Positions 1,705-21,080 of a stretch of DNA of 64,000 nucleotides are shown here, one piece after another. Position 1 is the first letter of the stretch. Each line of letters opens with the position of its first letter. The translations under genes and the position numbers were made by a program. The notes beneath the pieces were generated by a model. The model saw only the letters and a program-made list of their open reading frames with translations, was not told the origin of the DNA and searched no databases. This DNA comes from Aestuariivivens sediminicola (GTDB lineage Bacteria > Bacteroidota > Bacteroidia > Flavobacteriales > Flavobacteriaceae): positions 992,001 to 1,056,000 of the forward strand of contig NZ_JAKMCM010000001.1 in assembly GCF_022662015.1 (NCBI RefSeq), in the 5' to 3' direction.

Positions 1705-1706
1705 TA

Positions 1707-3549: not shown

Positions 3550-3567
3550 TCAACTAACTACTTGTTT

Positions 3568-4749: not shown

Positions 4750-6932
4750 TTATTGGACCCGTCTATTTTAAGTAATAATTCGAACTCATGATTCTGATTT
4801 GAACACTCTTCTTCTTGAAGAAGAATTCTATTGATCAAAAAAACTTTTAGCATCTCATTAAATGTATCTAGTGAAATATTGTCTTTCAAATATTTGATTA
4901 ACCTTTCACCCTCTAATTTTAAAATTAATTTACCTTTTTGAAAATAAAAATTAAACAAATCAACAAATTCAATCCCCTGGTTTGAATAATATTCAAAATC
5001 AATAAGTTGTATTAATCCGTTATTTGTTATGAGTATATTCCATAAGGCAAAATCACCGTGTTCAATGACTAAGTTATAACTAAAATTAGATGTGTTTTTA
5101 ATATCTAATAATATCTCCATTAACTTAACCCTATTCATTATTTTTGCTCTATTAACTAATTTTAAAAATCCCGGATGCTCTCTTAATTTAAACTTCTCAT
5201 TTGATTTCAATTTATCTAAAAGCATATCAATATCACGCCTTGACAAACATTTAGCACTTTGACCTTCAATTGGTTTCATTAAAAAATATTCACACCCATA
5301 ATAAGTCCCTGAATGAATTAAATAATCCTCATCAAGTAATCCTCTTGAAGCCATCTCCTTCACTCCTCTTATCTCATTAATAATTTTGTGATTCCCTTTA
5401 GGATTGAGACCAATTTTAACATATCCATAAATATCTTCATTTGAATCTAGTAATTGTAAGATAAGTTTATCAGAAATCGTTGGATAATAAATTGATGATG
5501 TGAATTTCATTTGCAATACCTTTTCCAAATGATTTATAAACTCACCATTGCTATGAGATTTTAAAAAGTTTCTGAACACATTCCTGAAGGATAAAACATA
5601 TCTTTTAAAAAAGATTTTGAAAATTAAGGCCTTCTTAGAATATGGATTATATAAACTAAGTCCATTTTCAATAGCTTTTAGTGAATTGATATTTAAAGAT
5701 ACTCTCTTCTTAAAAAAAGGTAGGCTAACATATTTACCATCTGAATAAAACATGCTATTATTAATTGTATTTTCTCTTAGCATAGTTTTAACAACATCAT
5801 TTACTATCGCATCAACAGGCTTATTTGCATTGATTAAATAATAATTTTTCTGTTTGCCCAGTTCTCGATACTTTTTTAATTGTAATTTTAAACTTGTTTC
5901 AGAAACCTCCTTTTTCCTATTATGGATAACTTCCACGGGAGCCTCTAAAATAAAATGGATACTTGGTTTTGGGATGAATTTTTTTAAGAATTTAACAAAA
6001 GAGTCTGACGCTCCATAACGGTAACGCTTAGGATCTGCAAAAATATCTTCAAAATACCTATCAAAAACAATAAGCGTAGGGGTTATTTTTTTTGGAAGTA
6101 TATTTATTAACCAATAGAAATTATATTCGAAAATAAAATATATCAATTTGAGCACAGATAATAGTACAGAATAGTTATTATTCTGATGAGGATTTATTTG
6201 AATGTTCTGGTTCTTCGATTTTATTTTTTTAGGTTTTAAATGATAATATTCGAAGTTAACAAACGGGTTGTTGGCCCTTATGCAATCAATAATTGTAGAC
6301 TTGCCCGAACCATCTGGCCCCAAAAAAGAAATAGTCATACTCGGACATTCCAAAATTCTGTAATACAATAAGAAAAATTTATGCAAATAATATTTGAATA
6401 AAAAAAAAGGTGACCTAAGATATTTTTTTTCCTTCTTATATTTTTCTCTAATCTCATTTTCACTGATATCAGGCAATAGCTTTTGAAAATAACTTAAATG
6501 CTCTTCAACAGGGCTCTTTTTAAAAACCTTTTTTCTAAGGTAATAGAGAAACTCATCTTCTGAGTCAAGCATATACAAAGCCTTTCCTTTGATAAAGGTT
6601 GTCTTTTTTCTTTTCAGAGCCCCCTTAGTATCGATCTCCAAATTATTTTTATTCGAATAGGTCACGTCGAGTTCAATCTTAAATATTTCTGTATTATTAA
6701 AATAGATAATATTAAATCTTTGAACGCCTAAATCGATAGTATGGCTAACGTAATAGGACTGATTGTTCAAACAATAAGCAGAAATAAATCTTTTAAGGTC
6801 CTCTTTATTACAATTTATGACCAAATCAATGTCACATGTCTTTTCGAATATTTTATCAACATGATGTATAATAGCATAATCATAATGCCTTTCTAGAGTA
6901 CTAAAAAAATCAAGAATTATATCTTCTCTCAT
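4746..6932 (-). CDS. Three-domain fusion: nucleotidyltransferase-like + thymidylate-kinase-like + APH-type kinase
   Basis: This 728-residue protein has three catalytic-looking parts. Residues ~1-130 look like a minimal nucleotidyltransferase, with CDIDLVIN (Asp34, Asp36) and a third acid at ELDV (Asp89). Residues ~195-385 form a P-loop kinase of the thymidylate-kinase type: GPDGSGKS at 205-212 and a DR pair (291-292) in VFDRYFED. Residues ~500-720 resemble aminoglycoside/choline-type phosphotransferases: HGDFALWN (625-632) is the catalytic loop and IDFEYY (644-649) the metal-binding Asp. All motif residues are present, so none of the three is obviously dead. It shares 4-bp overlaps with the genes on both sides (GT4 and GT2), placing it firmly in the polysaccharide operon. 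Possibly it phosphorylates or activates a substituent. I cannot name the substrate. Confidence 0.75.
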   Translation of the reverse strand: MREDIILDFFSTLERHYDYAIIHHVDKIFEKTCDIDLVINCNKEDLKRFISAYCLNNQSYYVSHTIDLGVQRFNIIYFNNTEIFKIELDVTYSNKNNLEIDTKGALKRKKTTFIKGKALYMLDSEDEFLYYLRKKVFKKSPVEEHLSYFQKLLPDISENEIREKYKKEKKYLRSPFFLFKYYLHKFFLLYYRILECPSMTISFLGPDGSGKSTIIDCIRANNPFVNFEYYHLKPKKIKSKNQNIQINPHQNNNYSVLLSVLKLIYFIFEYNFYWLINILPKKITPTLIVFDRYFEDIFADPKRYRYGASDSFVKFLKKFIPKPSIHFILEAPVEVIHNRKKEVSETSLKLQLKKYRELGKQKNYYLINANKPVDAIVNDVVKTMLRENTINNSMFYSDGKYVSLPFFKKRVSLNINSLKAIENGLSLYNPYSKKALIFKIFFKRYVLSFRNVFRNFLKSHSNGEFINHLEKVLQMKFTSSIYYPTISDKLILQLLDSNEDIYGYVKIGLNPKGNHKIINEIRGVKEMASRGLLDEDYLIHSGTYYGCEYFLMKPIEGQSAKCLSRRDIDMLLDKLKSNEKFKLREHPGFLKLVNRAKIMNRVKLMEILLDIKNTSNFSYNLVIEHGDFALWNILITNNGLIQLIDFEYYSNQGIEFVDLFNFYFQKGKLILKLEGERLIKYLKDNISLDTFNEMLKVFLINRILLQEEECSNQNHEFELLLKIDGSNK

Positions 6933-7678
6933 ATTTTAACCTTCTTTATGGTCTCTGAAATAATTCTTAAAAAGACCCCAAAATAACATTGAAAAATATT
7001 CATTCCTGAATTTTTTCTGGCAATAAAATTTTCTTTAAGGGATTTTAGAAGATTTACCTTCGCACTAATTCCTCCTAATCGATAATTTGAAATTAATTTA
7101 GGAATATAATGGAATTGAAATTTATCATGGTTATAATTGGTCAAGACGAATTGATAATCCGACAACGAGGAAAGACTAGTGTTGTATTTATTTTCATCAT
7201 ACACGTTTCTATGTATAAACATTGTTGGGTGGTTAAGCACCATACCATGGTATTTAATTAAAAAAGAATTGTTCTTAGCTTTCCTTATAAATGGTTTCCC
7301 ATTCTCTGGAATACACATTTTATCGCCGTGAAAAATTCTTTTATTATCGTACTTTAAATATGTATTTACCACGGTTTCAACTGCATCCAATTCATACCAA
7401 TCATCACTGTTAACTATTCCGATTAGCTCCCCTGACGCCAAGTCTATACCTTTGTTCATGGCATCGTATAACCCCTCATCCGGTTCACTGATCCATCTAG
7501 TGATTTTCGATTCATTCCGTTTAATAATGTCTAAAGTTCCATCTGTTGACTTTCCATCAATGATAATATACTCGATGTTTTTATAGGTCTGCTGTGCTAC
7601 ACTATCAATAGTTTGCTGTAAGTGTTTTTCACCGTTAAAAACCACCGTAATTATACTGACTAAAGGGTTATCCGTCAT
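6929..7678 (-). CDS. Glycosyltransferase family 2
   Basis: A 249-residue GT-A fold enzyme of typical single-domain length. It starts with SIITVVFNGEKHLQQTIDSV, has YIIIDGKSTDGT for nucleotide binding, and carries the DxD-like metal motif NSDDWYE near residue 91. It is predicted to add one residue to the undecaprenyl-linked repeat in the cytoplasm. It has 4-bp overlaps with both neighbours (the three-domain fusion and the Wzy-like gene). The C-terminus is basic and hydrophobic and may touch the membrane. Confidence 0.9.
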   Translation of the reverse strand: MTDNPLVSIITVVFNGEKHLQQTIDSVAQQTYKNIEYIIIDGKSTDGTLDIIKRNESKITRWISEPDEGLYDAMNKGIDLASGELIGIVNSDDWYELDAVETVVNTYLKYDNKRIFHGDKMCIPENGKPFIRKAKNNSFLIKYHGMVLNHPTMFIHRNVYDENKYNTSLSSLSDYQFVLTNYNHDKFQFHYIPKLISNYRLGGISAKVNLLKSLKENFIARKNSGMNIFQCYFGVFLRIISETIKKVKI

Positions 7679-8910
7679 TTTAAAAATATTACCATTTGGT
7701 TTATTTCATTATCATTCATGACTCTGTATTTTTTAACTAAAACTGTCCCTATGGCCATCCATAAAAAAATAAATGTTGGGGTAAAAGCAGGTCGGAAAGA
7801 CACCAAACTTAACATAGTGATTAACAAAATATAATAACCCAAGCGTTTAATGAATTTATTCCTGGATCTAAAAAGCGCCAGATAAATGGCTTGGAAATAT
7901 ATTAATAGATTTAAAATTAATAGAATCAGGCCTCCTTTCAATATCACCTGTAAATATCCCACTTCCACAGTAATCCTTTCTGGAACATCACCTGCCCACC
8001 CTTTTTGCCCCATAAAAATCCAATATCTCCGAGTTCTTTCAAAAAAATCACTGTAATAAGTTCCGAGAGAGCCTCTACCAAAAATTGCTTCAGTTTTATT
8101 CAAATCAGCAAAAATTTCAGCAAAAAGAAACGTTCTCGAATCTTGAAAATCTACAATAGATGATATGATATTTGAAACATAATCATAACCTATAGTAAAG
8201 ACCCAAATTAAAACCAAGATAAAAACAGCAACAATATACTTCAAGAGAACACGACGTAGTTTTATGCCAACTATTTTATCCAATAACAGCAATCCAAGTG
8301 TTAATGATAAAAACAACAGGTCCATGCGCTGCTTTACACTTGTTGCGACAAAAATTAATATACCTATTGTGAGTACAACGATAATCTTTTTTCTCAAAGA
8401 AATGCGGTTAAGCCCAAGCAATAATATTAAGTTTACCGGCCTTAGCAACCAGGCCCATTGTAAATAACTATTGTTGAAAAACAGGGAAATTCCGAAAACT
8501 AAAATCATGAGTTCAAAAACAAAGAATATGACCCTGTAAACGATATTCCAGTTCTCTAATTTGAGACCAAGTGCCATGGCAACAGGCACTAACCAGGCCA
8601 ATCCCATATAAACATTCCCAAAATTAGTGACCCAATCCTGCAAGGATAAAGAAAAGCCCCTGATCACTGTAATTATCCCCCAGATCAGAAGTAAATAAAA
8701 CAAAATCCTTGAGCACAGAGGAATGTTTCTTAAAGATATCTTGTTTTTAATTGACAAGATGAAAATAATCAATACCGAAAATAATAATAAAGAGGTAATT
8801 GCGATTTTTAAAAGACTAATCCCATCAGGTCGAATTAAAAAGAACATTAAAACATAGCTCGCGTTAAGAACCAACCCCCATTTTAATAATTTTTGTTCCG
8901 ATATGACCAT
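7675..8910 (-). CDS. Polytopic membrane protein, probable O-antigen polymerase (Wzy-like)
   Basis: A 411-residue protein with about 10-12 hydrophobic segments and one larger loop (roughly residues 265-320: DFQDSRTFLFAEIFADLN ... IFGRGSLGTYY). A GRG-type loop preceding the last membrane helices is common in Wzy/O-antigen polymerases, which are poorly conserved and usually recognised by topology and context. It overlaps the GT2 gene by 4 bp and lies 75 bp downstream of the LicD gene. It probably links flipped repeat units in the periplasm. The assignment rests on topology and neighbours. Confidence 0.65.
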   Translation of the reverse strand: MVISEQKLLKWGLVLNASYVLMFFLIRPDGISLLKIAITSLLLFSVLIIFILSIKNKISLRNIPLCSRILFYLLLIWGIITVIRGFSLSLQDWVTNFGNVYMGLAWLVPVAMALGLKLENWNIVYRVIFFVFELMILVFGISLFFNNSYLQWAWLLRPVNLILLLGLNRISLRKKIIVVLTIGILIFVATSVKQRMDLLFLSLTLGLLLLDKIVGIKLRRVLLKYIVAVFILVLIWVFTIGYDYVSNIISSIVDFQDSRTFLFAEIFADLNKTEAIFGRGSLGTYYSDFFERTRRYWIFMGQKGWAGDVPERITVEVGYLQVILKGGLILLILNLLIYFQAIYLALFRSRNKFIKRLGYYILLITMLSLVSFRPAFTPTFIFLWMAIGTVLVKKYRVMNDNEINQMVIFLK

Positions 8911-8985: not shown

Positions 8986-9642
8986 TTAATTTGGTTCTGG
9001 ACGCCTAAAGAAGCCTTTTAATTTGTTTAAGATTAAAAATAAAAACGGTAGGTTTTTTCGAATGGTTTCTCTGAAAATAATATACTTGTTAAATTCAATT
9101 GCAGCCACATCCTTAACGGGAGTTCTCCAGTTTTTACCATATAAATCCACTAAAAACTTTTCCGGTTCTACAGGAATTTGAAATGTACTGCCCAGAAACT
9201 CGTAGTCCTCTGTGTTTTCTAAATATCTGCATTTTGCTTTTAGTCCTAGGTCACATTTCCTGTAATTCGAACTTGTTTTTTTAAAAAAATAAAAATCAAT
9301 GTACTCCTCATGTCTTTTAATACTTAACAATTTTCCATCATATCTAATGACGCTGAAGCCTAACTCAATGACCTCTGGCAGCACATCTAAAAGCGCTTCC
9401 TTATGTTCTTCTAAAATGTATAAATCGATATCCTCATCATGTTCAATAAAATTATTTTCTCTGATGGCCCCCAATAAAGTGCCATAAATAAGTCCGAACT
9501 TTATATTATTCCCGTCTAAAACCCCTTTTAAATCCAGAAGATTCTGCTTGGCTAACTCCAGATTTATATATTTGGTCCCGGAAACCGGTATCGTTTCTTT
9601 ATAGGTAATGATTCCCTTATTTGTAATTATCTCTTTTATCAT
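8986..9642 (-). CDS. LicD-family phosphotransferase
   Basis: A 218-residue protein with the LicD core: FGLIYGTLLGAIRENNFIEHDEDIDLYI (the acidic HDEDID motif spans residues 68-73). LicD proteins of pneumococcus and Haemophilus move phosphocholine from CDP-choline to a glycan, and relatives move other phospho-alditols (fukutin-type ribitol phosphate). Here it sits 4 bp overlapped with the flippase gene and close to a sugar-phosphate nucleotidyltransferase (10948-11670), an alcohol dehydrogenase, a kinase and an aldolase. This suggests it adds a phospho-substituent made by those enzymes. The donor is inferred, not proven. Cytoplasmic. Confidence 0.85.
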   Translation of the reverse strand: MIKEIITNKGIITYKETIPVSGTKYINLELAKQNLLDLKGVLDGNNIKFGLIYGTLLGAIRENNFIEHDEDIDLYILEEHKEALLDVLPEVIELGFSVIRYDGKLLSIKRHEEYIDFYFFKKTSSNYRKCDLGLKAKCRYLENTEDYEFLGSTFQIPVEPEKFLVDLYGKNWRTPVKDVAAIEFNKYIIFRETIRKNLPFLFLILNKLKGFFRRPEPN

Positions 9643-10910
9643 TCTTGCTTTAATGTCATTAATTTCGTTTTAAACACATAATAAACCCTAAATACCAAAC
9701 CCGTTAGCATGTAAACCGGAATAGCAAATACGACAATATAGACGTCTTTGGAAACATAAACTGCTAATGTAGTATATAAGATATAAATCAGAGCGGCATA
9801 GATGAGGCTATTGTTTGCATACTTTATATACCCGAAGGCCGCCAGTAAGGGATAGCCTAAAATCATACTCATAATTGCGAAAACCGCCCCGCTGAAAACA
9901 ATTGTAAAAATCAAAGACAGCATACGACTTTGTTCATCATAAATGATCTGCAACAATTCCTGATTAAAATAAATAATTGGGATGACCAGTAATAATGATA
10001 TGCCGGTTAAAGCAACTAATATTTTTTTTAAAAACACTAGGTTTCTGGTCCTTGCCATATAGGGATAAATGGTTTGAGACACCACTGAACCAAGACTCAT
10101 AAATGCAAAAAACAATTTCTCAACCATGGTATAATATCCAACAATCAAATTTCCAAAATGTAGGCCAAATAAGGTCGTTACAAAATATCTGCTCCCATTG
10201 TTGGCCATCCTTGACAAGAAAAATTGAAAACTATCTACAAGCTCTTTAAGAATAGCCGCCTTTTTTGGTTTGACCCATTTTAAAGAAAACAGTTTAAAGG
10301 CCAGCCAAAACGCATAACTCGAGCCTAAAATCACACCTAATGCATTTAAAATAGGCACATAAATGTAATCTGAAGATTTCTTTATAACAACAAATATCAG
10401 GATCGTAAACAGGACTTTTGAGAATACATTAACGTAGGTCATATATTTCATTTTTTCCATGCCCTGAAACAGCCAGGTCGGAAAAATACAATTCCCTACC
10501 ACTAAACCAAATGTAGCATAATATAACAGCGCATTCGTCTGAAAGATCTCTATTGTCAAAATAAGAATTGAGAGTGTAATGAAGGATAAAAAAAGCAAGC
10601 ATAACTTAATGAACATGACCGAAGAGAATATCTCGGAAACCTTTTTAGAATCCGCTCTATGAATAGAGATTTCACGTGTTGCAGACAATTCAAATCCGAA
10701 GCTAACCAAAATGTTAAAATACATAACAATGGAAACGGCAAAGTTTACCAGCCCAAATTTTTCAACCCCCAATACCCGTACTAAATAAGGTAAGGTCACC
10801 AAGGGTAACAGCATGTTCATCCCCTGAAGAACAGATAAGGAAAAAAAATTGGATAAGAGGGCTTTTTTGTCTCCAGACCCATTAGATATTTTCATTCCGT
10901 GTTTTATCAT
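9639..10910 (-). CDS. Wzx-type O-antigen/polysaccharide flippase
   Basis: A 423-residue MATE/MOP-superfamily transporter with about 12 transmembrane helices. The N-terminal region LSNFFSLSVLQGMNMLLPLVTLPYLVRVLGVEKFGLVNFA is the typical start of RfbX/Wzx proteins of the Polysacc_synt family. It flips the completed undecaprenyl-diphosphate repeat unit across the inner membrane. It is the only flippase in the window, and with the Wzz-like protein (26826-27899) and Wzy-like proteins it defines a Wzx/Wzy-dependent pathway. Its stop overlaps the LicD start by 4 bp. A second in-frame ATG at residue 6 is an alternative start. Confidence 0.92.
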   Translation of the reverse strand: MIKHGMKISNGSGDKKALLSNFFSLSVLQGMNMLLPLVTLPYLVRVLGVEKFGLVNFAVSIVMYFNILVSFGFELSATREISIHRADSKKVSEIFSSVMFIKLCLLFLSFITLSILILTIEIFQTNALLYYATFGLVVGNCIFPTWLFQGMEKMKYMTYVNVFSKVLFTILIFVVIKKSSDYIYVPILNALGVILGSSYAFWLAFKLFSLKWVKPKKAAILKELVDSFQFFLSRMANNGSRYFVTTLFGLHFGNLIVGYYTMVEKLFFAFMSLGSVVSQTIYPYMARTRNLVFLKKILVALTGISLLLVIPIIYFNQELLQIIYDEQSRMLSLIFTIVFSGAVFAIMSMILGYPLLAAFGYIKYANNSLIYAALIYILYTTLAVYVSKDVYIVVFAIPVYMLTGLVFRVYYVFKTKLMTLKQE

Positions 10911-10947
10911 AAATTATCACATCAGTAACTGAATTACTCTTCCCTCG

Positions 10948-11670
10948 TTATGAATTATATCTGCCAAACTTCTTTTTTGCTCTAATATAATCCTCTTCAA
11001 AGTCGACTTCTACAAAATTAGAATCTAAAATATCAAGAGCCCGAATATTGAATTGTTCTTTTTTTATTGCCTCAGAAATTACCGATTCCATATAGTGATG
11101 TAACTCGCCTTTTTTAAATAACATTTCCGCGGTCGATTTAAAAAACGGAATGGTTGATTTTTTAAATTTAGCAATGCCCAAAAACTCGCCGTCAGCAGAT
11201 TCAGGGTTCATCTCTTTAGTGATCTGTATAACTTTACCATTCTTTAGTTCCATTTTCATTTCCTCCTCACCACAAAGCTTCCGTTCAAATGGAAGCACCA
11301 TATCTCCCTCAGCACCAACCAATTCTTCCCAAATTGACCGTTCGGCCAAAGTGTCGGCATGTAAAAATAAAAAGTCGTCATTTAGGCTTTTCAGTCCCAT
11401 GTACAATGACCCTAAAACATTACAATGATTCCAAAAAGGATTGTATATGATCTCAATGTTATTACATTTTGAAAGATGATCCTCAATTTTATGGCTGTTA
11501 AACCCGGTTACAACAATGATGTTTTTTAAATTCAACTGGCTCAATATATCTATGTTATAATCTAATAGTGTGTAGCCATCATCATCCAAAGGCAATAAAC
11601 TTTTCGGAAGATCAATGGTATAATTTCCCAATCGACTTCCTTTTCCGGCAGCTAATATTACTCCTGTCAT
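10948..11670 (-). CDS. Sugar/alditol-phosphate nucleotidyltransferase (LicC-like)
   Basis: A protein of 240 residues from the ATG at 11668-11670; I chose this start because it begins directly with MTGVILAAGKGSRLG. The open frame continues upstream into the dehydrogenase gene and lacks homology there. It has the nucleotidyltransferase core: the GxGxR loop, PKSLLPL (catalytic Lys), and LHADTL as the metal-binding acid. Small stand-alone enzymes like this include LicC (CTP:phosphocholine cytidylyltransferase) and CDP-alditol-forming enzymes. With LicD downstream it most likely makes a CDP- or other NDP-linked donor. It begins 1 bp after the stop of the dehydrogenase gene. Substrate unproven. Confidence 0.82.
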   Translation of the reverse strand: MTGVILAAGKGSRLGNYTIDLPKSLLPLDDDGYTLLDYNIDILSQLNLKNIIVVTGFNSHKIEDHLSKCNNIEIIYNPFWNHCNVLGSLYMGLKSLNDDFLFLHADTLAERSIWEELVGAEGDMVLPFERKLCGEEEMKMELKNGKVIQITKEMNPESADGEFLGIAKFKKSTIPFFKSTAEMLFKKGELHHYMESVISEAIKKEQFNIRALDILDSNFVEVDFEEDYIRAKKKFGRYNS

Positions 11671-11671
11671 T

Positions 11672-12769
11672 CTATAATGAATTAAATAAAATCTTTTTAA
11701 TAGTTTCAATTCCCGTGTACGATGGATCTGCTTCAAGGTTTCCCGATACCTGATTTGATATATCAATTATTTGATTTTCATTAATTCCCAGGTCTGAAAT
11801 TGAGTAATCGATGTCCAAGCTTTCTTTTAATAACTGAACCTTGTCTAAAAACCCTATAATGCTAAGGTCTAAATCATCAGCAAGACGTTTAAATTCGATT
11901 AAACTGAGATCCTTCAAATGACTTAACCAGCCTTTGTACAAAGCAATTAATCCCTGCGCGTGACTTGTTCCGGTTAAAGGACCAATAACATACTGTATTC
12001 TGTGCGGAAGACAAGTTGAACTATAGGCTAAATTTATCCCCATTAAAGCAGATGAAAGCGCTATTTTCTCCATGGCATATAGATTATTTTCCTTGCATGC
12101 CGGGATTAAATACGAAAAAATGTTTCTTATACAGCCTATCGATTGATTTTTTACCAAAGGATTCGATTTTTTGGATATATAGGTTTCTATGGCATGTGTT
12201 AGGCAATCAAACCCAACCTCAGCTTTTAACTTGGAAGGACAGGCATTATGCAGATTGGCGTCTATAATCACGCCATTTGGTTGAATAATATCCCCTCGTA
12301 AACCTCCTTTAATGGAATTCTCTTTATCATAAATTATTGCACCAAAAGATAACTCTGCTCCTGTACCCGCGGTAGTTGGAATAGCGATAACCTTAATTTT
12401 ATTCTTAGGCATTTCAGCTCTTTTATAAAACACATCTTTATAACTAACGCCCTGAAATGCTATGGATAAGGCCTTTGCAGCGTCTATTACAGACCCGCCA
12501 CCAATGGCTATTATACTTTCTATGCGTTTCCCTGTCAGATCATTTATAACCTTATCTAAATCCTCAAATGGGGCATCCGGACTGATGTGATTGTAAATGT
12601 AAAGTGTTCTTTCCTTTTTTAGTTCATCAAAAATCGAAGAAAAATTAAAGGTGTCTAAAACGGTTTTGGAAATAAGAATTAAAACACGGCTCCCAAGATT
12701 AAACTCTGTTAAAACTTCAAAAGAAATTGGCGCTACTACTAATTTAGGTTTTATAGAATAATGTGTCAT
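11672..12769 (-). CDS. Iron-type (group III) alcohol dehydrogenase
   Basis: A 365-residue protein with NAD(P)-binding GGGSVIDAAKAL (90-101) and PTTAGTGAEL (131-140). The four metal ligands of the family are all present with normal spacing: Asp188, His192, His256 and His270. Relatives include FucO, glycerol and 1,3-propanediol dehydrogenases and phosphonoacetaldehyde reductases; they interconvert aldehydes or ketones with alcohols. It overlaps the FGGY kinase gene by 4 bp. In this operon it probably reduces an intermediate before nucleotide activation, as TarJ does in CDP-ribitol synthesis (TarJ belongs to a different dehydrogenase family). Phosphonate synthesis is less likely because no PEP mutase gene is present in the window. 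Confidence 0.85.
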   Translation of the reverse strand: MTHYSIKPKLVVAPISFEVLTEFNLGSRVLILISKTVLDTFNFSSIFDELKKERTLYIYNHISPDAPFEDLDKVINDLTGKRIESIIAIGGGSVIDAAKALSIAFQGVSYKDVFYKRAEMPKNKIKVIAIPTTAGTGAELSFGAIIYDKENSIKGGLRGDIIQPNGVIIDANLHNACPSKLKAEVGFDCLTHAIETYISKKSNPLVKNQSIGCIRNIFSYLIPACKENNLYAMEKIALSSALMGINLAYSSTCLPHRIQYVIGPLTGTSHAQGLIALYKGWLSHLKDLSLIEFKRLADDLDLSIIGFLDKVQLLKESLDIDYSISDLGINENQIIDISNQVSGNLEADPSYTGIETIKKILFNSL

Positions 12770-14283
12770 AAATTGCTTATGGTTTCTGATGCGAATGACT
12801 TAATCTGTTTCCTTAAATTATAGTGATCATTATACATTGGCAGTAAACGCTCATTTAATTTCTTATAGAACATAAAAAATTCATGATATACTTTATGATT
12901 ATCCTCTGAAGGGTTAATGATTTTTCTAATTTTAATAATTTTCGATGCCGCCTCTTCTATAGAGTTAAACCTATTTAAACTTATCATCATGAGTATAAAA
13001 GCACCTACAGAAGTGCTTTCAAAATTTTCTATAACTTTTATTCTTTTATTGGTGACATCAGCTTTTATTTGATTGATTAGGTCGAATCTCGCCAATCCTC
13101 CACTTACGGTCATCGATTCGATGTCCAAGCCATTAGATGTTATCAATTTGAGAAGATCATTTGAAACAAAAGCAGTAGATTCAAAAACAGCTCGCGTAAA
13201 TTCTTTTATTGTACTGCTTCTATTAACCCCAAAAAATGAACCTTTGGCATTGGCGTTCTTAAAAGGTGCGCGTTCTCCCAGCATATAGGGTAGAAAAAGT
13301 ATTCCATGAGCGCCTATAGAGATCTCGTGCGCATTGTTTTCCATAATGTAATAGACGTTCTTATCCGCTTCATTATAAAATGCCTGCTTCAACCATTCTA
13401 TGATACCTCCTCCCAAATTATTTGATGCGCCAATTAAAAATTTATCATGATTTCCCAGTTTTTGGGATAATATCAATCCCTTTCCAGCATTAAGGCCATG
13501 GTCTGAAAGCACCCTCACCGAAGTTACTGTTCCAGAAACATCACAGGCTGTTTTTTTATCCCCATCAAAAGACCCTACTACAGCACAAATGGCATCGTAG
13601 GTGGTCAATATATATTTACATTTAGGTGATAAATTAAATGTTGTTTTGATTTTTTTTAGGACCGGTAGTTCATATCCCATTTCCCTGACTATGGGCAATG
13701 TGTTCACATCCAAACCCACATTGTTAATTAGATCTTCATGATAGTTTCCATCATTAAAAAAACCCTTGCTAGCGTTTAGTGTATCCGTAAATACCTCCTC
13801 CGTGAAATAATAATTAAGGAATTCCCCCGCCCCAATCCAACATTTAACCTCACTGAATACTTCCGGATTATTTCTTTTTACCCAAAGTGCCTTAGAAATA
13901 ATTGATGATTCCGGACAATTAACAATAGATTTTTCTCCCTGCGAATTAATTATGGTTTCTATCTCCTGAGCTTCCTTATATGCTCTTTTATCCGAGACCA
14001 TCATAACTTTTGTTAAGGGGTTTCCTTTATCATCAATTCCAAAAATACAGGAGGAACTTGTTGTTGATGTGATGTATTCTATTTTACCGTTGAGGTAATC
14101 AATTGAGGAAATTTCGGTTAAAATATTCTCCAGTTTAATCTTCCATTCTCTTGAATCCTGTTCAACCTTATGATCGATTAAATTAGAATATACGGCCCTT
14201 GAAGTCGTATATATTTGTTTTCCTTCTTCATTAAAAACAATGCCTCTTATCGATTTAAGCCCTAAATTTATTACTAAATACAT
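12766..14283 (-). CDS. FGGY-family carbohydrate kinase
   Basis: A 505-residue protein, the normal length for FGGY kinases. The catalytic Asp is probably Asp230 in TTYDAICAVVG. The second half has CDVSGTVTSV (phosphate loop) and SGGLARFDLINQIKADV (adenine-side motif). The first phosphate-binding motif, normally DxGT, reads NLGLKS (Asn6-Ser11), so the usual Asp and Thr are replaced. It overlaps the downstream alcohol dehydrogenase gene by 4 bp and lies 8 bp downstream of the aldolase gene. It is expected to phosphorylate a sugar or polyol. FucK-, RhaB- and GlpK-like roles are all possible. Confidence 0.85.
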   Translation of the reverse strand: MYLVINLGLKSIRGIVFNEEGKQIYTTSRAVYSNLIDHKVEQDSREWKIKLENILTEISSIDYLNGKIEYITSTTSSSCIFGIDDKGNPLTKVMMVSDKRAYKEAQEIETIINSQGEKSIVNCPESSIISKALWVKRNNPEVFSEVKCWIGAGEFLNYYFTEEVFTDTLNASKGFFNDGNYHEDLINNVGLDVNTLPIVREMGYELPVLKKIKTTFNLSPKCKYILTTYDAICAVVGSFDGDKKTACDVSGTVTSVRVLSDHGLNAGKGLILSQKLGNHDKFLIGASNNLGGGIIEWLKQAFYNEADKNVYYIMENNAHEISIGAHGILFLPYMLGERAPFKNANAKGSFFGVNRSSTIKEFTRAVFESTAFVSNDLLKLITSNGLDIESMTVSGGLARFDLINQIKADVTNKRIKVIENFESTSVGAFILMMISLNRFNSIEEAASKIIKIRKIINPSEDNHKVYHEFFMFYKKLNERLLPMYNDHYNLRKQIKSFASETISNL

Positions 14284-14291
14284 TTATTTAA

Positions 14292-15122
14292 TTATTGAGT
14301 ATACTTCATCAGGTATTCCTCAAAAAGTTGAGACAATCCCTCTGTCATTAATTTGTTAAAAGATATTTCATTATAAAGATCATTGCCAGAAGTATATGAT
14401 TTTAATAAATCCATAGTATGTTTTTTGAGTTGTGTAGAAACATTAATCTTAACCACGCCATAATCAATTGTTTCCTTTATAATGCTATCCGGGAGTCCTG
14501 TCCCCCCATGTAAAACATAAAACTGTTGATCGTCCAACTTATTACTGGCTTCCTTTAAAATAGCAGTCTTTAATCCTTTCAAATCATCATAAAAACCGTG
14601 CGCATTACCAATCCCAAGGGCCATTAAATCGATTTTCGTTTCTTTTACGTAGGTCTCAATCTCTTCAATTTCTGCATATGAGGACCCTTCCTCTCCAAAA
14701 CCATCCTCAACACCCGACACTTTCCCTAATTCCCCTTCAACTAAACAACCAACCTTCGAGGCATGTGCTATTATGATTTTTGTGTTTTTCATATTGGTCT
14801 CGATATCAAAAGCCGAGCCATCATACATTACCGAATCAAATCCAAAATCTATGCAGCGCTTAATAAACTGAAGGTCTATACAATGATCCAAATGAAAATA
14901 AATAAAGTCATTTCCATATGTTTTTATCAGAAATTCTATGCCGTACTTTTCATCAAGTAATCGTAAATACCTTTCTGAAAACTGAATTATTAATGGAACT
15001 TTCAATCTTTCCGACACTAATTTTGCAGCTTCCAGATGATACAGATTTTGAAGATTAAAAGCCATCAATGCTCTTTTACGCTTCCTCAAATCTAACAATA
15101 CGTCCTTTAACTTGCTTTTCAT
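14292..15122 (-). CDS. Class II ketose-bisphosphate aldolase (GatY/KbaY/Fba-like)
   Basis: A 276-residue zinc-dependent aldolase. Visible active-site residues: HLDHC with Asp79 and zinc ligand His80, Glu131 in VEGELG, His175 in GNAHGFY, His205 in LHGGTG, and KINVST (225-230) for phosphate binding. GKVSGVEDG resembles the tagatose-bisphosphate aldolase subgroup. The enzyme makes or cleaves ketose phosphates using dihydroxyacetone phosphate. As the first gene of the kinase-dehydrogenase-nucleotidyltransferase-LicD run, it may build the carbon skeleton of the substituent. There is no sign that it is the glycolytic enzyme. Confidence 0.87.
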   Translation of the reverse strand: MKSKLKDVLLDLRKRKRALMAFNLQNLYHLEAAKLVSERLKVPLIIQFSERYLRLLDEKYGIEFLIKTYGNDFIYFHLDHCIDLQFIKRCIDFGFDSVMYDGSAFDIETNMKNTKIIIAHASKVGCLVEGELGKVSGVEDGFGEEGSSYAEIEEIETYVKETKIDLMALGIGNAHGFYDDLKGLKTAILKEASNKLDDQQFYVLHGGTGLPDSIIKETIDYGVVKINVSTQLKKHTMDLLKSYTSGNDLYNEISFNKLMTEGLSQLFEEYLMKYTQ

Positions 15123-15183: not shown

Positions 15184-16221
15184 TTAATACGAATCATATA
15201 CTCTTTGTATACCTTCCTCTAATTCAATTTTATATCGCCAACCCAACTTGTTTAATTTCGACACATCGGTTAGTTTACGCATTGTACCATCCGGTTTTTC
15301 TGTATTGAATACGAGTTCACCTTTAAAACCGACAATGTCTTTAATCGTTTCCGCCAATTCCTTAATCGAAATATCTTTGCCAGTCCCGATATTAATATGT
15401 GTATTTCGAATTTCCTTGGTTCCGGATGGAACCGTATCCTTAAAATCAATATGCTCCATCAGGAATACGCAGGCATCAGCCATGTCCTCACTCCATAGAA
15501 ACTCACGTTTTGGCTTTCCTGTGCCCCAAATCTCAACACGGTTGGCAGTGACTCCAAATTGACTTAAATACGACTTGGCCTCTTCAATGGAATCTAGTCC
15601 TAAATCTTTAATAACAGCCTCATATTGGCCTTCTGATAATAATTTCCCTAAATGCATTTTTCTTATGAGCGCTGGGAGGACATGCGACTTTTCCAAATTG
15701 AAATTATCATTGGGGCCATACAAATTGGTAGGCATAACTGAAATGAAATTCGTTCCATATTGCAAATTATAGCTTTCGCACATTTTAATACCCGCTATTT
15801 TGGCTATGGCATAGGGTTCATTCGTATACTCCAACGGGTCTGTCAGTAAATAGTCCTCTTTCATGGGCTGCGGGCAGTTTTTTGGGTAGATACAGGTACT
15901 TCCCAAAAAAAGTAATTTTTTTATCCCATGACAATAACTCTGATGAATCACATTGTTTTGAATCATTAAATTGTCATAAATAAACTCTCCCCGATAGGTG
16001 TTATTCGCAATGATGCCCCCTACTTTAGCAGCTGCTAAAAACACATACTCCGGTTTCTCTTCTTGAAAAAATTCAGCTACGGCAGATGCCTCAGTTAAGT
16101 CCAACTCCTGATAGGTACGTGTCAAAAAATTGTTATACCCTTTGGATTTTAAGTTTTTTAAAATTGCACTGCCTACCAAACCCTTATGTCCGGCGACATA
16201 AATTTTAGAATTTTTCTTCAT
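15184..16221 (-). CDS. fcl: GDP-L-fucose synthase
   Basis: A 345-residue short-chain dehydrogenase with the start [18 protein letters not shown] near residue 65, the SxxY-K pair in FLGSTCIYP and YAIAKIAG, and LYGPNDNF. It converts GDP-4-keto-6-deoxymannose to GDP-L-fucose by 3,5-epimerisation and reduction. It follows gmd with a 3-bp gap, so the two enzymes of the pathway are co-transcribed. GDP-fucose would be a donor for one glycosyltransferase of this locus. An insert of about 20 residues near 200-225 is common in bacterial Fcl forms. Confidence 0.95.
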
Positions 16222-16224
16222 TCC

Positions 16225-17343
16225 TTATTCAAAGTAATTCATCGTTTCATAGCCCCCGTTTCTCAGATACTGATCCTTTTTCATCAATTTCAGGTCGCTC
16301 TGCATCATGTCCTGAACCAGATCGTTCAGGGAATACTTCGGAACCCAACCCAGTTTATGCTTTGCCTTTGAGGCATCTCCCACGAGTAAATCCACCTCTG
16401 TCGGCCTGAAGTATTTGGGATCTACACTCAAGACCTCTTTCCCTATTGGTAACTGATATTCCGAGTTGCTGCATGATTTTACATAAGCCTTTTCGTCTAC
16501 TCCCTTGCCCTTGAATTCCAATTCAATACCAACTTCATTAAAACTCATTCTAACAAACTCCCTGACCGGAGTTGTTTTTCCTGTAGCAATGACCCAATCC
16601 TCTGCTTCCTCAGCCTGTAGAATCATCCACATCATTCGCACATAATCCTTGGCATGTCCCCAATCCCTTTGGGCATCCAAATTTCCTAAATAAAATTTAT
16701 CCTGAAGACCTAAGGCGATTCTTGAAACTGCCCTGGTTATTTTTCGCGTTACAAAAGTCTCTCCTCTAATGGGCGATTCGTGGTTAAATAAAATACCATT
16801 ACATGCATAAATGCCATAGGCCTCTCTATAATTTACCGTTATCCAATAAGCATACATTTTCGCAACTGCATACGGGCTCCTTGGGTAAAATGGTGTGGTC
16901 TCTGTTTGTGGTACCTCCTGGACCTTTCCATATAACTCAGAAGTAGATGCTTGATAAATACGGCACTTTTTTTCCATCCCTAAAAACCGAATGGCCTCTA
17001 ACAATCTCAGAGTCCCAACCCCATCAGCATTCGCAGTATATTCAGGCATCTCAAAAGATACATGGACATGACTCATCGCTGCCAAATTATAAATTTCCTG
17101 AGGTTGCACTTCCTGAATAATCCGTGTCAGGTTGGTACTATCCGTCATATCCCCGTAATGAAGGAAAAAGTTTCTGTCTTGTTCGTGTGGATCCTGGTAT
17201 AAATGGTCAATTCTGTCCGTATTGAACAAAGAAGATCGGCGTTTGATCCCATGCACTTCATATCCCTTCTTCAACAAAAACTCACTTAAATAAGCCCCGT
17301 CTTGACCTGTTACTCCAGTAATTAAGGCTATTTTTTTTGACAT
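16225..17343 (-). CDS. gmd: GDP-mannose 4,6-dehydratase
   Basis: A 372-residue SDR protein. It has [19 protein letters not shown] (NADP-binding), [14 protein letters not shown] (catalytic Thr/Ser-Glu), [11 protein letters not shown] (Tyr-Lys) and [16 protein letters not shown], all typical of Gmd. It makes GDP-4-keto-6-deoxy-D-mannose, the substrate of Fcl, whose gene lies 3 bp downstream. No mannose-1-phosphate guanylyltransferase gene is in the window, so GDP-mannose must be made elsewhere. Confidence 0.96.
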
Positions 17344-17426
17344 TGTTAATTCAATTTAGATTTATATATTCCCGATTTGATTTCAGCAGGTAAAAGTAAG
17401 ATATTTATACTCCTAACCATAATCAT

Positions 17427-18434
17427 TTAATCGTTTTTAAACGCCTCTATGATACCCTTTAAACTATCAACCGTTTCCCATGCCGTATTCTCCCCTGAAT
17501 TATAACTAAACCCCTGAGGCACCTTTTTAGCATCAAAGCTACTTATAAAATCTTCCAAACGCCATGACGGGTTGGGAGGCAGAATAACATAATGGGCGCC
17601 AAGATCGTAGGTGTAGAAGGCATCCGTCTTGGAAATCATTTCCTCATGCACCTTTTCCCCCGGCCGTATTCCTATAATGGGCTTTTCACATTCCGGACCA
17701 ATGGCATTGGCGACATCCATAATGCGGTATGAGGGTAATTTAGGGACAAATATTTCACCTCCCCAGGTATGCTCCAGGGCATACAGGACCATTTTAGCCC
17801 CTTCTTCCAATAAAATGTTAAACCGGGTCATATTGGGATCGGTAATAGGCAAAATGCCATCCTCCTGCTTCTTTTTGATAAAAAATGGTACCACAGAACC
17901 GGTAGATCCCATCATATTCCCATAACGCACCACCGTAAACCTGGTTAACGTACTGCCATTAGAATTATTGGCGGCTATGAACAATTTATCAGAAATCAGT
18001 TTTGTGGCTCCATAAAGACTGTTGGGCGAACAGGCCTTGTCGGTCGACAATGACACTACCCGTTCGACGCCGGCTTCCAGACAAGCCTCTATCACATGCT
18101 GAGCCCCTCCTATATTCGTTTTGATGCACTCATCCGGATTGCTTTCGGCCACATGAACATCTTTCATCGCAGCGGTATGGATCACATAATCAACCCCCTG
18201 AAAAACACGAAACAGGCGTTCCTTATCTCTTACATCGCCAATGACATAGTGTACCTGAGGGTATTTAGATTTCGGTAAGGTCCTGGCCATAGCAGCTTGT
18301 TTTTGTTCGTCTCTCGACAAAACGCGTAGTTGCTTTATCTCGGGATGTGCTTCTAAGATATATTGAGTTAATGCCTTTCCCAGTGAACCCGTACCTCCGG
18401 TTATTAATATGATTTTTTCGTTGTAATCGAACAT
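17427..18434 (-). CDS. UDP-GlcNAc 4,6-dehydratase, soluble PglF/PseB type
   Basis: A 335-residue protein of the Polysacc_synt_2 family. It has GGTGSLGKALTQYIL (NADP loop), VLSRDEQKQ, TAAMKDVHVAESNPDECIKTN and STDKACSPNSLYGATK with the SxDK-x-Y-K active site. It removes water from UDP-GlcNAc to give the 4-keto-6-deoxy sugar. It is the short soluble form without the membrane domain of full-length PglF. The next upstream gene encodes a PglE-like aminotransferase, so the retaining route to UDP-4-amino-sugars is favoured; the inverting PseB or FnlA (WbjB) type cannot be excluded. A likely -7 element (TAAATTTG, minus strand, 18473-18480) precedes it, suggesting its own transcript. Confidence 0.85.
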   Translation of the reverse strand: MFDYNEKIILITGGTGSLGKALTQYILEAHPEIKQLRVLSRDEQKQAAMARTLPKSKYPQVHYVIGDVRDKERLFRVFQGVDYVIHTAAMKDVHVAESNPDECIKTNIGGAQHVIEACLEAGVERVVSLSTDKACSPNSLYGATKLISDKLFIAANNSNGSTLTRFTVVRYGNMMGSTGSVVPFFIKKKQEDGILPITDPNMTRFNILLEEGAKMVLYALEHTWGGEIFVPKLPSYRIMDVANAIGPECEKPIIGIRPGEKVHEEMISKTDAFYTYDLGAHYVILPPNPSWRLEDFISSFDAKKVPQGFSYNSGENTAWETVDSLKGIIEAFKND

Positions 18435-19141
18435 TTGTTTTGTTTTCTGTTTCAGAACATATGGGACTTGGGCAAATTTAAAGTATTTAATTTATTGTTC
18501 ATTTTTGGCTTGACCCAACCCTTCGACTTCCTGCCCGACCGGTAGGCTGATGCTCAGGGCAGGGAACTGAACCTAAGCCCGCCTGTTAAATTTCAGTAGA
18601 TCCCGTTATCTCAGAACTCTTATAAGTAGCATAGAAGAATTCTAATACCTATTCGCCGATCTTAAAATACTTGTTATGTTCATTTTTTGCTTGTCCAAAA
18701 AACTGAACCAAAAAAGGACACCAATAGTAGGAATTTCACCTGCGGTGAACCAAGCTCAAAAATTGGCGTCACTTCGCTCCTGAATTTCCAATCTTTTGAG
18801 CTTATATTCTTACTATTGGAAACCGTACAAAGCAGCTTCCTTCATTCATATCGAATTCAATTTATGCTGCCTTTTTTCAACTTATAAATTCGTGTTGTTC
18901 ATTTTTGGCTTGACCCAAAAACGAACCAAAAAACTCAAGTCTTACCCCATAACCTTAATTAAATACTACGGTACCCTCATCCACAGATGAAAAGAACTCG
19001 TTCCCATTACCATGGGAACTCAAACAGCTTTTCATCTCTCTGCCTCACTGCTACCTTGATTTTTAAAGGTTATGGCGATAGGACGTTAAATAAAATTCAT
19101 GATCTTATTCGTTTTTTGTTTGCCCTTAAAGAAGTTAAGGT
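18435..19141. repeat. Intergenic region with dispersed repeats, no gene
   Basis: This 707-bp gap has no convincing gene on either strand. It carries three copies of a motif of the form TGTTCATTTTTGGCTTGACC (starting near 18495, 18675 and 18897), the last two continuing into AAAAA-C-GAACCAAAAAA. It also carries a GC-rich near-palindrome around 18528-18563 (cctgcccgaccggtaggc and cagggcaggg), related in inverted orientation to 20738-20800. The motif copies differ by several bases. This looks like accumulated non-coding repeats rather than a decayed gene. Confidence 0.7.
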
Positions 19142-20278
19142 TCAAGTCTTTAAATACTCTAAAATAACATTGGAAATCATCTGTTTATCCGAATCCGTTA
19201 AACCGGAACCAGAAGGCAGGCACAAGCCATTTTCAAATAAGGTCTCTGCTACTTTACCCCCGTAATAAGGACATCCTTTAAACAAAGGCTGCAGATGCAT
19301 GGGCCTCCATATGGGTTTGGATTCTATGCCCTGCCGACCTAAGGCCTGTAGTAGGCCCATCGCACTTTTATTGGCTTTATTAGGAGAAAATTGAATACAA
19401 GTGAGCCAGTGATTGGCATAGTGTTCGGCATTGGTCTCTGAAAATACCTGTATATAATCAAAAGGCTCGAACAGGTTTTTATAAAACAGATGATTCGCCC
19501 GTCTCTTTTCAATGTATGCCGACAAAGTCTCCATTTGACCCCTGCCCATACCCGCAGCAATGTTGCTCATTCTGTAATTATACCCCACCGTACTATGCGC
19601 ATACCACAAGGCTTCATCTTTTGCCTGTGTCGCTAAGAAAATAGCTCTATCCTTTTGTTTTACCTCTTTGCAAATCAAAGCCCCACCTCCCGATGTGGTG
19701 ATAACCTTATTACCATTAAAGGATAGAATACCAAAATCCCCAAGACTCCCACATTTATGGCCCTTATAGCTGCTTCCCAATGCTTCTGCCGCATCCCCAA
19801 TAAGCGGGATGTCATATTTTTTGGAAACAGTCTTAATCTCATCCATTTTAGCCGGCATTCCAAAAATGTGCACAACAATGATGGCCTTAGGTTTTTTTCC
19901 TTTTAATAGGCGATCCTGAATCGTTTCCTCCAGGACTCTTGGACAAAGATTCCAGGTATCCTGTTCACTATCCACAAATATGGGTTTAGCCCCTTGATAT
20001 AGTATTGGAAAGGCCGAGGCTGCAAAGGTCAGGCTTTGGCAAATCACCTCATCATCATGTTGTACTCCCGCTAAAATTAAGGCGAGATGAATGGCTGCCG
20101 TACCGGATGACACGGCCACCACATGCCTCTGTCCACCCAGATATGACTCCAGATCCTTTTCAAAATCTGAAATATGCCTTCCGGATGAAGCCACCCAATT
20201 GGTTGCCAGGGCCTCTTTAATATATTTTAACTCTTCACCACCCATGTGCGGTGGAGATATTCTTATTTTATAATTCAT
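19142..20278 (-). CDS. PLP-dependent sugar aminotransferase, PglE-like (DegT/DnrJ/EryC1)
   Basis: A 378-residue protein. The N-terminal ISPPHMGGEELKYI and the stretch FNGNKVITTSGGG (PLP lysine Lys191) match PglE of Campylobacter closely by eye. Asp162 in GDAAEALG should contact the pyridoxal ring. PglE converts UDP-4-keto-6-deoxy-GlcNAc to the 4-amino sugar, the step after the 4,6-dehydratase at 17427-18434. The acetyltransferase PglD is not seen in the window. It has its own good promoter (20304-20335) and is isolated by repeat-filled gaps on both sides. Confidence 0.88.
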   Translation of the reverse strand: MNYKIRISPPHMGGEELKYIKEALATNWVASSGRHISDFEKDLESYLGGQRHVVAVSSGTAAIHLALILAGVQHDDEVICQSLTFAASAFPILYQGAKPIFVDSEQDTWNLCPRVLEETIQDRLLKGKKPKAIIVVHIFGMPAKMDEIKTVSKKYDIPLIGDAAEALGSSYKGHKCGSLGDFGILSFNGNKVITTSGGGALICKEVKQKDRAIFLATQAKDEALWYAHSTVGYNYRMSNIAAGMGRGQMETLSAYIEKRRANHLFYKNLFEPFDYIQVFSETNAEHYANHWLTCIQFSPNKANKSAMGLLQALGRQGIESKPIWRPMHLQPLFKGCPYYGGKVAETLFENGLCLPSGSGLTDSDKQMISNVILEYLKT

Positions 20279-20303
20279 AAAGGAAGCATATGGGCTGTCG
20301 TGT

Positions 20304-20335
20304 CAAAGATAAAAAAACAGAACCTTGATCTTCAA
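20304..20335 (-). promoter_or_regulatory. Bacteroidota-type promoter for the PglE-like gene
   Basis: On the minus strand TTG (20333-20335), a 21-bp spacer, then TATCTTTG (20304-20311) match the TTG / TAnnTTTG consensus. It ends 25 bp before the ATG at 20278. Confidence 0.65.
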
Positions 20336-20406
20336 TGATCTCTAATTAATTCCATTCCTTCAACTTTTCCTATTCATGAAAAAAAAGTAAACCTGTTTGT
20401 CTTCTT

Positions 20407-20661
20407 TCAAGTAGTCAAGTTTTTCTATTTTCTCATTCTCAAATCACGAGACTGTCATTCCTGCGAAGGCAGGAATCTATTGATTCAAAATACGAAGAAA
20501 CACCTTAAGAAAATATTAATTCAGTGTGGATAAATGGTTTCAACCATTAATAACTAAATAATGATGCTGGATTCCTGCCTTCGCAGGAATGACAATACCA
20601 TGGGTATTTCCTTTAACTACAATCCCTAATCATTCCTTTATTATAGGCTGTTCTGACTCAA
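20407..20661. repeat. Direct repeat copy 1, containing a MITE-like element
   Basis: A stretch of about 255 bp that recurs at 20807-21060, offset 400 bp. Both ends are well conserved between copies (TCAAGTTTTTCTA.TTTCTCATT at the left, CAATCCCTAATCATTCCTTT at the right), while the centre has diverged. Inside, 20453-20594 is bounded by inverted arms of about 24 bp beginning TGTCATTCCTGCGAAGG. Each arm is itself a hairpin (20457-20476 and 20571-20590: ATTCCTGC, GAAG or CTTC loop, GCAGGAAT). This is the layout of a small non-autonomous repeat, similar in arm sequence to dRS3/REP-type elements. No transposase gene is nearby. Confidence 0.8.
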
Positions 20662-21060: not shown

Positions 21061-21080
21061 GTGGCAAAGATTCAGAATAC

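Follow-up and report, generated by a model that had tools for sequence, protein, structure and literature searches.

A recurrent four-gene cassette that probably makes a nucleotide-activated alcohol for bacterial surface polysaccharides

The window analysed here is a 64,000-nucleotide stretch of the 3.65 Mb genome of the flavobacterium Aestuariivivens sediminicola (contig NZ_JAKMCM010000001.1). It harbors a surface-polysaccharide locus in which the genes for a class II aldolase, an FGGY-fold kinase, an iron-type alcohol dehydrogenase (Fe-ADH) and a LicC/PntC-like nucleotidyltransferase, collectively called the cassette below, sit between the sugar-nucleotide genes and a flippase gene (Table 1). 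A prediction made from the sequence alone (the original prediction) had grouped these four genes with a LicD gene into a nucleotide-activated phospho-substituent pathway. The six products, flippase and LicD included, all pass the Pfam cut-offs, PF04991 aligning over the N-terminal part only of LicD. The tight succession of the genes was reproduced: 8 base pairs (bp) separate the aldolase and kinase genes, the kinase and Fe-ADH genes overlap by 4 bp, and 1 bp lies between the Fe-ADH and nucleotidyltransferase genes if the latter begins at the ATG at 11670–11668 rather than at the TTG at 11766 from which its open reading frame was listed. The flippase gene does stand between the nucleotidyltransferase and LicD genes, and it overlaps the latter by 4 bp. 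A search of the window against Rfam gave no match.

Table 1. Genes of the cassette and of the surrounding polysaccharide locus (positions in the window)
Feature	Position	Strand	Pfam match
Class II (metal) aldolase dependent on dihydroxyacetone phosphate, 276 amino acids	14292–15122	minus	PF01116, 213 bits
FGGY-fold kinase with N-x-G-x-K-S-x-R phosphate-1 motif, 505 amino acids	12766–14283	minus	PF00370/PF02782
Iron-type alcohol dehydrogenase, CLPHR[IL]QY subfamily, 365 amino acids	11672–12769	minus	PF00465/PF25137
CTP-type nucleotidyltransferase, LicC/PntC-like, 240 amino acids	10948–11670	minus	PF12804/PF00483
Wzx-type flippase, 423 amino acids	9639–10910	minus	PF01943, 171 bits
LicD-family phosphotransferase, 218 amino acids	8986–9642	minus	PF04991, 43.6 bits (cut-off 22.6)
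Wzy_C protein, WecG/TagA-type and group 1 and 2 glycosyltransferases, 728-amino-acid protein, 411-amino-acid protein without Pfam match	556–8910	minus	
NAD-dependent epimerase/dehydratases, DegT aminotransferase, initiating sugar transferase	15184–21668	minus	PF01370, PF02719, PF01041, PF02397 (gene 16225–17343 outside the Pfam scan)

In the aldolase, residues H80, E131, H175, H205, G206, G209 and N227 are invariant among 22 aligned sequences. They presumably represent the metal-binding His and Glu residues and the motifs that hold the phosphate of dihydroxyacetone phosphate (DHAP), and the alignment indicates that the window protein keeps both. The solved structures nearest to the family include KbaY-type ketose-bisphosphate aldolases, and the cut-off of the best NCBIfam equivalog, for fructose-/tagatose-bisphosphate aldolase, was not reached (185.6 bits for a cut-off of 343). 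The DPR motif, which we take to be the far-phosphate site, is absent from 30 of the 31 aligned aldolases, including that of the window; the sole carrier is that of locus L044. Five clostridial-type sequences have a Lys residue after DPL.

The kinase scores above the curated cut-offs for both FGGY_N (74.7 bits) and FGGY_C (97.4 bits), and the catalytic base, D230, is kept in all 35 aligned kinases. The phosphate-1 motif of FGGY proteins, D-x-G-T-[ST], is replaced in the cassette kinases by N-x-G-x-K-S-x-R, whose N, G, K and R residues are found in all 34 aligned proteins that cover the site, window included, and whose S is found in 32. D-x-G-T is kept in the solved relatives listed and in four of four FGGY paralogues of the host genomes (L091–L094). 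Thus, the intact active sites of the original prediction hold for the aldolase, the Fe-ADH, the nucleotidyltransferase and the kinase base, but not for the phosphate-1 motif of the kinase, which departs from the FGGY standard. The cassette kinase may nevertheless use ATP, since acetate kinase, whose motif we take to be N-x-G-S-S-S, also has an Asn at this place. The idea of an inactive kinase was rejected, as the base and the other FGGY motifs are kept.

The structural model of the kinase (predicted local distance difference test score, pLDDT, of 90.2) has 3gbt as its best Foldseek match, and nine of the top ten chains bear the title xylulose kinase or xylulokinase; 3gbt itself is named a gluconate kinase, its sister entry 3ll3 being named a xylulose kinase. 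XylB is the best NCBIfam model (187.5 bits for a cut-off of 380), and no named FGGY function exceeds its cut-off. The protein is not close to FucK, which scores 87 bits with the kinase profile as against 283 for 3gbt. The same profile separates the cassette kinases (at least 704 bits) from other FGGY proteins (at most 289) in five host genomes. Among the signature residues of glycerol kinases, given as R83, E84, Y135, D245 and F270 in PMC3245297, only the Asp is kept in the window kinase, the others aligning by eye with S77, S78, S126 and S255. Glycerol kinase, like any other named FGGY function, was rejected on the NCBIfam scores and these signature residues.

The Fe-ADH scores 106.8 bits with its Pfam family, above the cut-off, and its metal ligands D188, H256 and H270 are found in all 27 aligned proteins and H192 in 26 of them (Ala in L054). 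It resembles lactaldehyde reductase, among others, in NCBIfam, where the phosphonate Fe-ADH model is also among the better matches, under its cut-off. The three best solved relatives have neither of two Arg residues that lie near the metal ligands in the sequence: R158, present in 26 of the 27 proteins, and R257, present in all of them but located inside the motif by which the loci were chosen. Such residues might be expected to accompany a phosphorylated or nucleotide-linked substrate.

With the nucleotidyltransferase profile, LicC (1jyk) and PntC (6pd1) score 110.7 and 107.9 bits, respectively, followed at 69.4 bits by a protein titled inositol-1-phosphate CTP transferase. The AlphaFold model of the window protein (mean pLDDT 94.4) has PntC and then LicC as best fold matches, and cytidine triphosphate (CTP) is thus the probable nucleotide, judging from the nearest relatives. 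The substrates of both relatives, 2-aminoethylphosphonate and phosphocholine, are two-carbon compounds. Alignment of 25 of the 34 cassette proteins, counting that of the window, shows R14, K24 and K153 to be kept in all; PMC6697681 gives Arg15, Lys25 and Lys153 as the catalytic residues of PntC. D107 is kept in the window protein. PntC Glu104 and LicC Asp105, placed at the amine end of the substrate in the same paper, correspond to His105, which is His in 24 and Asn in one of the 25 aligned sequences, and their partner acid (PntC Glu196, LicC Asp192) aligns with Glu in all 25. As a lead only, the replacement of an amine-facing acid by His would fit a neutral hydroxyl end of the substrate.

The recurrence of the cassette was investigated in one genome per species, over 84,980 species, with the Fe-ADH motif CLPHR[IL]QY, guessed to be subfamily-specific, as a bait. 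The scan gave 48 loci (designated by L numbers), which were confirmed by tblastn; none of the 192 stretches from a first scan with plain Fe-ADH was confirmed. The kinase is present in 35 of the 48 loci. Among those 35, the nucleotidyltransferase occurs in 33, the class II aldolase in 32 and the complete set in 31, so that the co-occurrence of the four genes is not due to chance. Their order is aldolase, kinase, Fe-ADH, nucleotidyltransferase in 28 of the 31 loci, the aldolase coming last in L044, L045 and L051. The families of the original prediction, which had proposed such a search as a check, do therefore recur together elsewhere, and the prediction withstood its own refuting condition on this point. 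The 35 loci do not represent 35 independent events, since nine come from a single ‘Lapin’ series of clostridial-type bins.

As the bait was an Fe-ADH motif, co-occurrence was retested with the kinase profile as a separate bait. In the order of a clostridial host, a search of 246 genomes added a single new one to the centre genome, and its genes for LicD, aldolase, kinase, Fe-ADH and nucleotidyltransferase stand in a row on one strand; around two further hosts (198 and 274 genomes), the centre genome alone had a match. When loci are compared in pairs, the distances measured with one of the four proteins track those measured with another (r 0.96–0.97 over 28–34 loci including the window; for every pair of proteins, none of 999 permutations reached the observed value). 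Joint inheritance would give this result, but so would host ancestry, as shared ancestry was left in.

The cassette is rare and scattered. Its hosts, going by their record titles, include flavobacteria, one member each of Crocinitomicaceae, Oceanospirillaceae and Pelagibacteraceae, Erythrobacter, Myxococcales, Bdellovibrionaceae, Cohnella, many Clostridia, Treponema, KSB1, Aminicenantes, Chloroflexi, Acidimicrobiia, Verrucomicrobiaceae and Patescibacteria, with the proviso that many are metagenome bins whose taxon labels may be wrong. In the genomes sampled from the order and phylum of the window's host, no second copy turned up. An Fe-ADH search of 296 genomes of the order gave the window only at E 1e-30, and in 395 genomes of the phylum it gave one weak extra match (G322, 32% identity). 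A nucleotidyltransferase search of the same 395 genomes had matches in 14, namely the window and 13 paralogues of 25–33% identity, around which (5–20 kb each, tblastn) no aldolase, kinase or Fe-ADH relative was found; in these neighborhoods, a LicD relative occurs once (L027) and a further relative of the nucleotidyltransferase twice (L026, L029). Elsewhere in the phylum, one genome has a LicC-like paralogue beside CDP-alcohol-transferase-like and aminotransferase-like genes recognised by eye (L019:9876–12531). Plasmid searches gave, among the matches listed, only relatives of less than 45% identity.

Four kinase-bearing loci lack the full cassette. In L047, the gene preceding that of the kinase encodes an aldolase with another fold (DeoC/LacD), whose closest kin is class I fructose-bisphosphate aldolase, and the contig starts just before it, so that a class II gene could lie beyond. 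The contig of L073 ends at the Fe-ADH gene, and the aldolase was not found there either; L072 has none within the 21 kb examined. In L043 (Myxococcales), the aldolase, kinase and dehydrogenase genes are followed by a TagD-like cytidylyltransferase (CTP_transf_like) fused to a phosphoenolpyruvate (PEP) mutase domain (6948–8255), with no decarboxylase recognised by eye nearby; this fusion may link the cassette to C-P chemistry.

Thirteen kinase-less loci were excluded from the count (L050, L054–L056, L058–L061, L063, L070, L080, L081 and L083). L054, where only about 1.1 kb of contig precedes the Fe-ADH gene, and L080, with broken genes, are the two that keep a transferase, together with a nucleotidyltransferase relative. 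In the former, a weak GatZ/KbaZ-like gene follows the nucleotidyltransferase gene, and a class II aldolase gene could lie beyond the nearby contig start. L081 and L083 are cut or partial. In L060 (9911–14610), and also in L050, L055, L058, L059, L061 and L063, a CLPHR Fe-ADH gene has no kinase, aldolase or nucleotidyltransferase gene in the DNA examined and adjoins genes for UbiA, EamA-like and DUF212/PAP2 proteins (by Pfam on L060, by clustering in the others). This setting resembles that of prenyl-phosphate pentose pathways, and such loci perhaps reflect a second role of the subfamily.

Other genes were observed beside the cassette. A protein of about 425 amino acids with an ATP-grasp domain and, by eye, a HAD-like C-terminus is encoded next to it or one gene away in three unrelated hosts (L041:5450–6727, L044:13419–14699 and L064:3795–5063). 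In a KSB1 contig, the gene after that of the aldolase encodes a paralogue of glyceraldehyde-3-phosphate dehydrogenase (L051:4000–5097). Three clostridial-type loci, L071 (3434–7377), L057 and L072, encode a protein of some 850 amino acids without Pfam match beside a CTP_transf_like-GFO_IDH_MocA fusion (Pfam was run on the L071 pair); the two perhaps constitute another activated-alcohol module. In the window itself, the 728-amino-acid protein (4746–6932) has a thymidylate-kinase-like middle part (24.4 bits, under the Pfam cut-off) and, by eye, nucleotidyltransferase-like N-terminal and APH-like C-terminal stretches.

The identity of the phosphotransferase near the cassette varies. The profiles used to search for the cassette and transferase genes derive from these very loci, so that matches to them are expected by construction; for this reason, Pfam served as the check on the transferase families. 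A Pfam-confirmed phosphotransferase was found in 26 of the 35 kinase-bearing loci, which the profile search splits into 12 with LicD, 11 with Glyphos_transf without LicD and three with CDP-OH_P_transf; a Glyphos_transf match in L077 (4e-6) and a possible transferase without Pfam match in L073 were left uncounted. The LicD gene directly precedes that of the aldolase in L041 and in eight clostridial-type loci, and directly after the nucleotidyltransferase gene stands one for Glyphos_transf in L048, L049, L064, L071, L072 and L075, or for CDP-OH_P_transf in L044, L047 and L079. Among flavobacteria, a flippase of the same cluster as that of the window also follows the cassette in L036–L039, and the next gene encodes LicD in the window and in L036 (Aestuariivivens sediminis), and Glyphos_transf in L037 (Winogradskyella ursingii), L038 and L039. 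LicD is thus one of several interchangeable transferases, and not the fixed fifth gene that the original prediction had made of it.

Each of the three families has members that use alcohols or choline activated with cytidine diphosphate (CDP). That three unrelated phosphotransferase families share the cassette as a neighbor is the strongest argument that its product is a CDP-alcohol. It is quite likely that the cassette makes a CDP-activated alcohol and that, in the window, LicD transfers it as a phosphodiester substituent onto the glycan of the locus. The identity and spread of the cassette, its linkage to phosphotransferases, the DHAP type of the aldolase and the LicC/PntC type of the nucleotidyltransferase are well supported, and the general idea of a nucleotide-activated phospho-substituent pathway has gained from the breadth of hosts, the three transferase families and the kinship of the nucleotidyltransferase. 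The aldolase of another fold in L047 and the weak GatZ/KbaZ-like gene of L054 are also counted in favor of the explanation.

Which alcohol is made is a more tentative matter. In the narrowly preferred mechanism, the kinase would place a 1-phosphate on a pentulose 5-phosphate, and the aldolase would cleave the resulting pentulose 1,5-bisphosphate into DHAP, which would return to glycolysis, and glycolaldehyde phosphate. The Fe-ADH would reduce the latter to 2-hydroxyethyl (glycol) phosphate, the LicC/PntC-like enzyme would convert this to CDP-glycol (CDP-ethylene glycol, CDP-2-hydroxyethanol), and glycol phosphate would be transferred by LicD, Glyphos_transf or CDP-OH_P_transf enzymes. Alternatively, cytidylyl transfer might precede reduction, as in CDP-glucitol synthesis. 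The cleavage direction is preferred on the reasoning that all four enzymes are then used, starting from a central metabolite, and that the source of the aldehyde is explained. A kinase and an aldolase would be needed only for an aldehyde phosphate outside central metabolism, of which glycolaldehyde phosphate is the simplest case. The xylulose-kinase-like fold of the kinase and the two-carbon substrates of the nearest nucleotidyltransferase relatives match this case. CDP-glycol is a tentative proposal, with several competitors.

A comparably tentative reading is the scheme of the original prediction, in which the aldolase would join DHAP and an aldehyde into a ketose 1-phosphate, the Fe-ADH would reduce it to an alditol phosphate that is then converted to a CDP-alditol, and the kinase would act on an intermediate. 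It draws on the same cassette and transferase linkage, it has a precedent in the CDP-6-glucitol of a capsule (PMC10918830), and an aldolase that keeps the DHAP-phosphate motifs but has lost DPR would suit an unphosphorylated aldehyde. The building direction, however, leaves the aldehyde without a source in the cassette and the kinase without a necessary step, and common alditol phosphates are in principle obtainable from central ketose phosphates without an aldolase. Of this scheme, the activation for a transferase is supported, and the building direction is conjectural. The same logic of phosphorylation, cleavage, reduction and activation as for CDP-glycol could also yield CDP-glycerol of unusual stereochemistry or a C3–C4 alcohol such as 1,2-propanediol, erythritol or threitol. 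This is somewhat unlikely: the enzymes are the same, the name of Glyphos_transf refers to the transfer of glycerol phosphate, the kinase profile places glycerol kinases among its closest solved relatives and the Fe-ADH is lactaldehyde-reductase-like, but the glycerol-kinase signature is all but lost, and a kinase and an aldolase would be superfluous, because glyceraldehyde 3-phosphate and erythrose 4-phosphate are already present in the cell.

Two further explanations are much less probable. A kinase, a DHAP aldolase and an Fe-ADH aldehyde reductase are also the enzyme types of L-fucose breakdown (FucK, FucA, FucO), and this family similarity would suit a degradative, fuculose-like route in which they break down a ketose, the last genes being unrelated neighbors. 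The aldolase of fucose degradation belongs to another family, however, and the cassette kinase is far from FucK. Moreover, 33 of the 35 loci with kinase and dehydrogenase also have the nucleotidyltransferase, whose distances track those of the other two, host ancestry included, and transferases are recurrent neighbors. The degradative route, which the original prediction already doubted for leaving its last two genes unexplained, is accordingly very unlikely. The least likely reading is a phosphonate pathway, with reduction of phosphonoacetaldehyde by the dehydrogenase and formation of a CMP-phosphonate by the nucleotidyltransferase. The PntC-like fold, the phosphonate Fe-ADH match under cut-off and the PEP-mutase domain of L043 speak for it. 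That domain nevertheless reaches only 295 bits for an NCBIfam cut-off of 320 and lacks EDKxxxxxNS, which we take to be the PEP-mutase motif; the kinase and the aldolase would have no role; and in the host genome of the window the one match to PEP mutase stays under the Pfam cut-off (29.4 for 31.5 bits), on which ground the route was rejected for the window.

Several observations weigh against a CDP-alcohol pathway or, more specifically, against CDP-glycol as its product. LicD and Glyphos_transf are common in polysaccharide loci generally, nine of the 35 loci, some on short contigs, have no confident transferase in the DNA examined, and the Glyphos_transf gene of L057 is on the opposite strand, about 5 kb away. 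The lack of an aldolase in the 21 kb examined of L072 and the fusion protein of L043, which the scheme does not explain, also count against it. The loss of DPR in nearly all the aldolases speaks mildly against a phosphorylated aldehyde. As for the kinase, its altered phosphate-1 motif, with an unusual Lys, could mean another donor or another reaction; its profile matches 3gbt and the E. coli xylulose kinase and then seven glycerol kinases; and its characterised relatives phosphorylate unphosphorylated sugars or polyols, and pentulose 5-phosphate is a putative substrate. Finally, enzymes of the LicC clan also take phosphoglycerate, phosphoglutamine and inositol phosphate, as described in PMC12275187.

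The cassette belongs among the nucleotide-activated alcohol pathways for surface phospho-substituents, and it differs from each of those considered. The Lic phosphocholine pathway (LicA, LicC, LicD) likewise has a kinase, a LicC-type cytidylyltransferase and LicD in one surface-glycan setting, but none of the four cassette genes is of choline-kinase type; an FGGY kinase is found instead, together with an Fe-ADH and a DHAP aldolase, and His stands in place of the amine-facing acid of LicC. The CDP-ribitol and CDP-glycerol pathways of teichoic acids also combine a cytidylyltransferase with Glyphos_transf-type enzymes; their reductases and cytidylyltransferases are of other families, and they have no aldolase or kinase of the cassette types. 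Treponema denticola PntC (PMC6697681) is the closest fold of the nucleotidyltransferase and shares its catalytic Arg, Lys and Lys, but has Glu104 where the cassette enzyme has His, and the host genome of the window has no PEP mutase scoring above the cut-off. The CDP-6-D-glucitol of Campylobacter jejuni HS:5 is, like the proposed product, a CDP-activated open-chain alcohol of a surface polysaccharide, made by a cytidylyltransferase and an NAD(P) reductase; according to PMC10918830, two enzymes suffice there, acting on fructose 6-phosphate without a kinase or an aldolase, and the cytidylyl step comes before reduction.

No description of the four-gene set was found among titles and abstract beginnings listed from 5.4 million open papers, with subscription journals mostly outside the search; within the same kind of text, nothing was found on CDP-ethylene glycol or glycol phosphate in bacterial glycans. 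The cassette is probably an undescribed pathway that makes a small activated building block to be attached to the bacterial surface via a phosphate. If the preferred product is correct, CDP-glycol would be a nucleotide-activated two-carbon diol, made through an FGGY kinase with a rebuilt phosphate-1 motif, and glycans or lipids decorated with glycol phosphate would occur in many phyla. The four enzymes can be assayed together in one tube. Phospho-substituents influence how bacterial surfaces are recognised, and whenever an activated donor has been worked out, a set of capsules, teichoic acids or lipids could be understood. With its distinctive kinase motif, the cassette provides a sequence marker for such a donor in many phyla.

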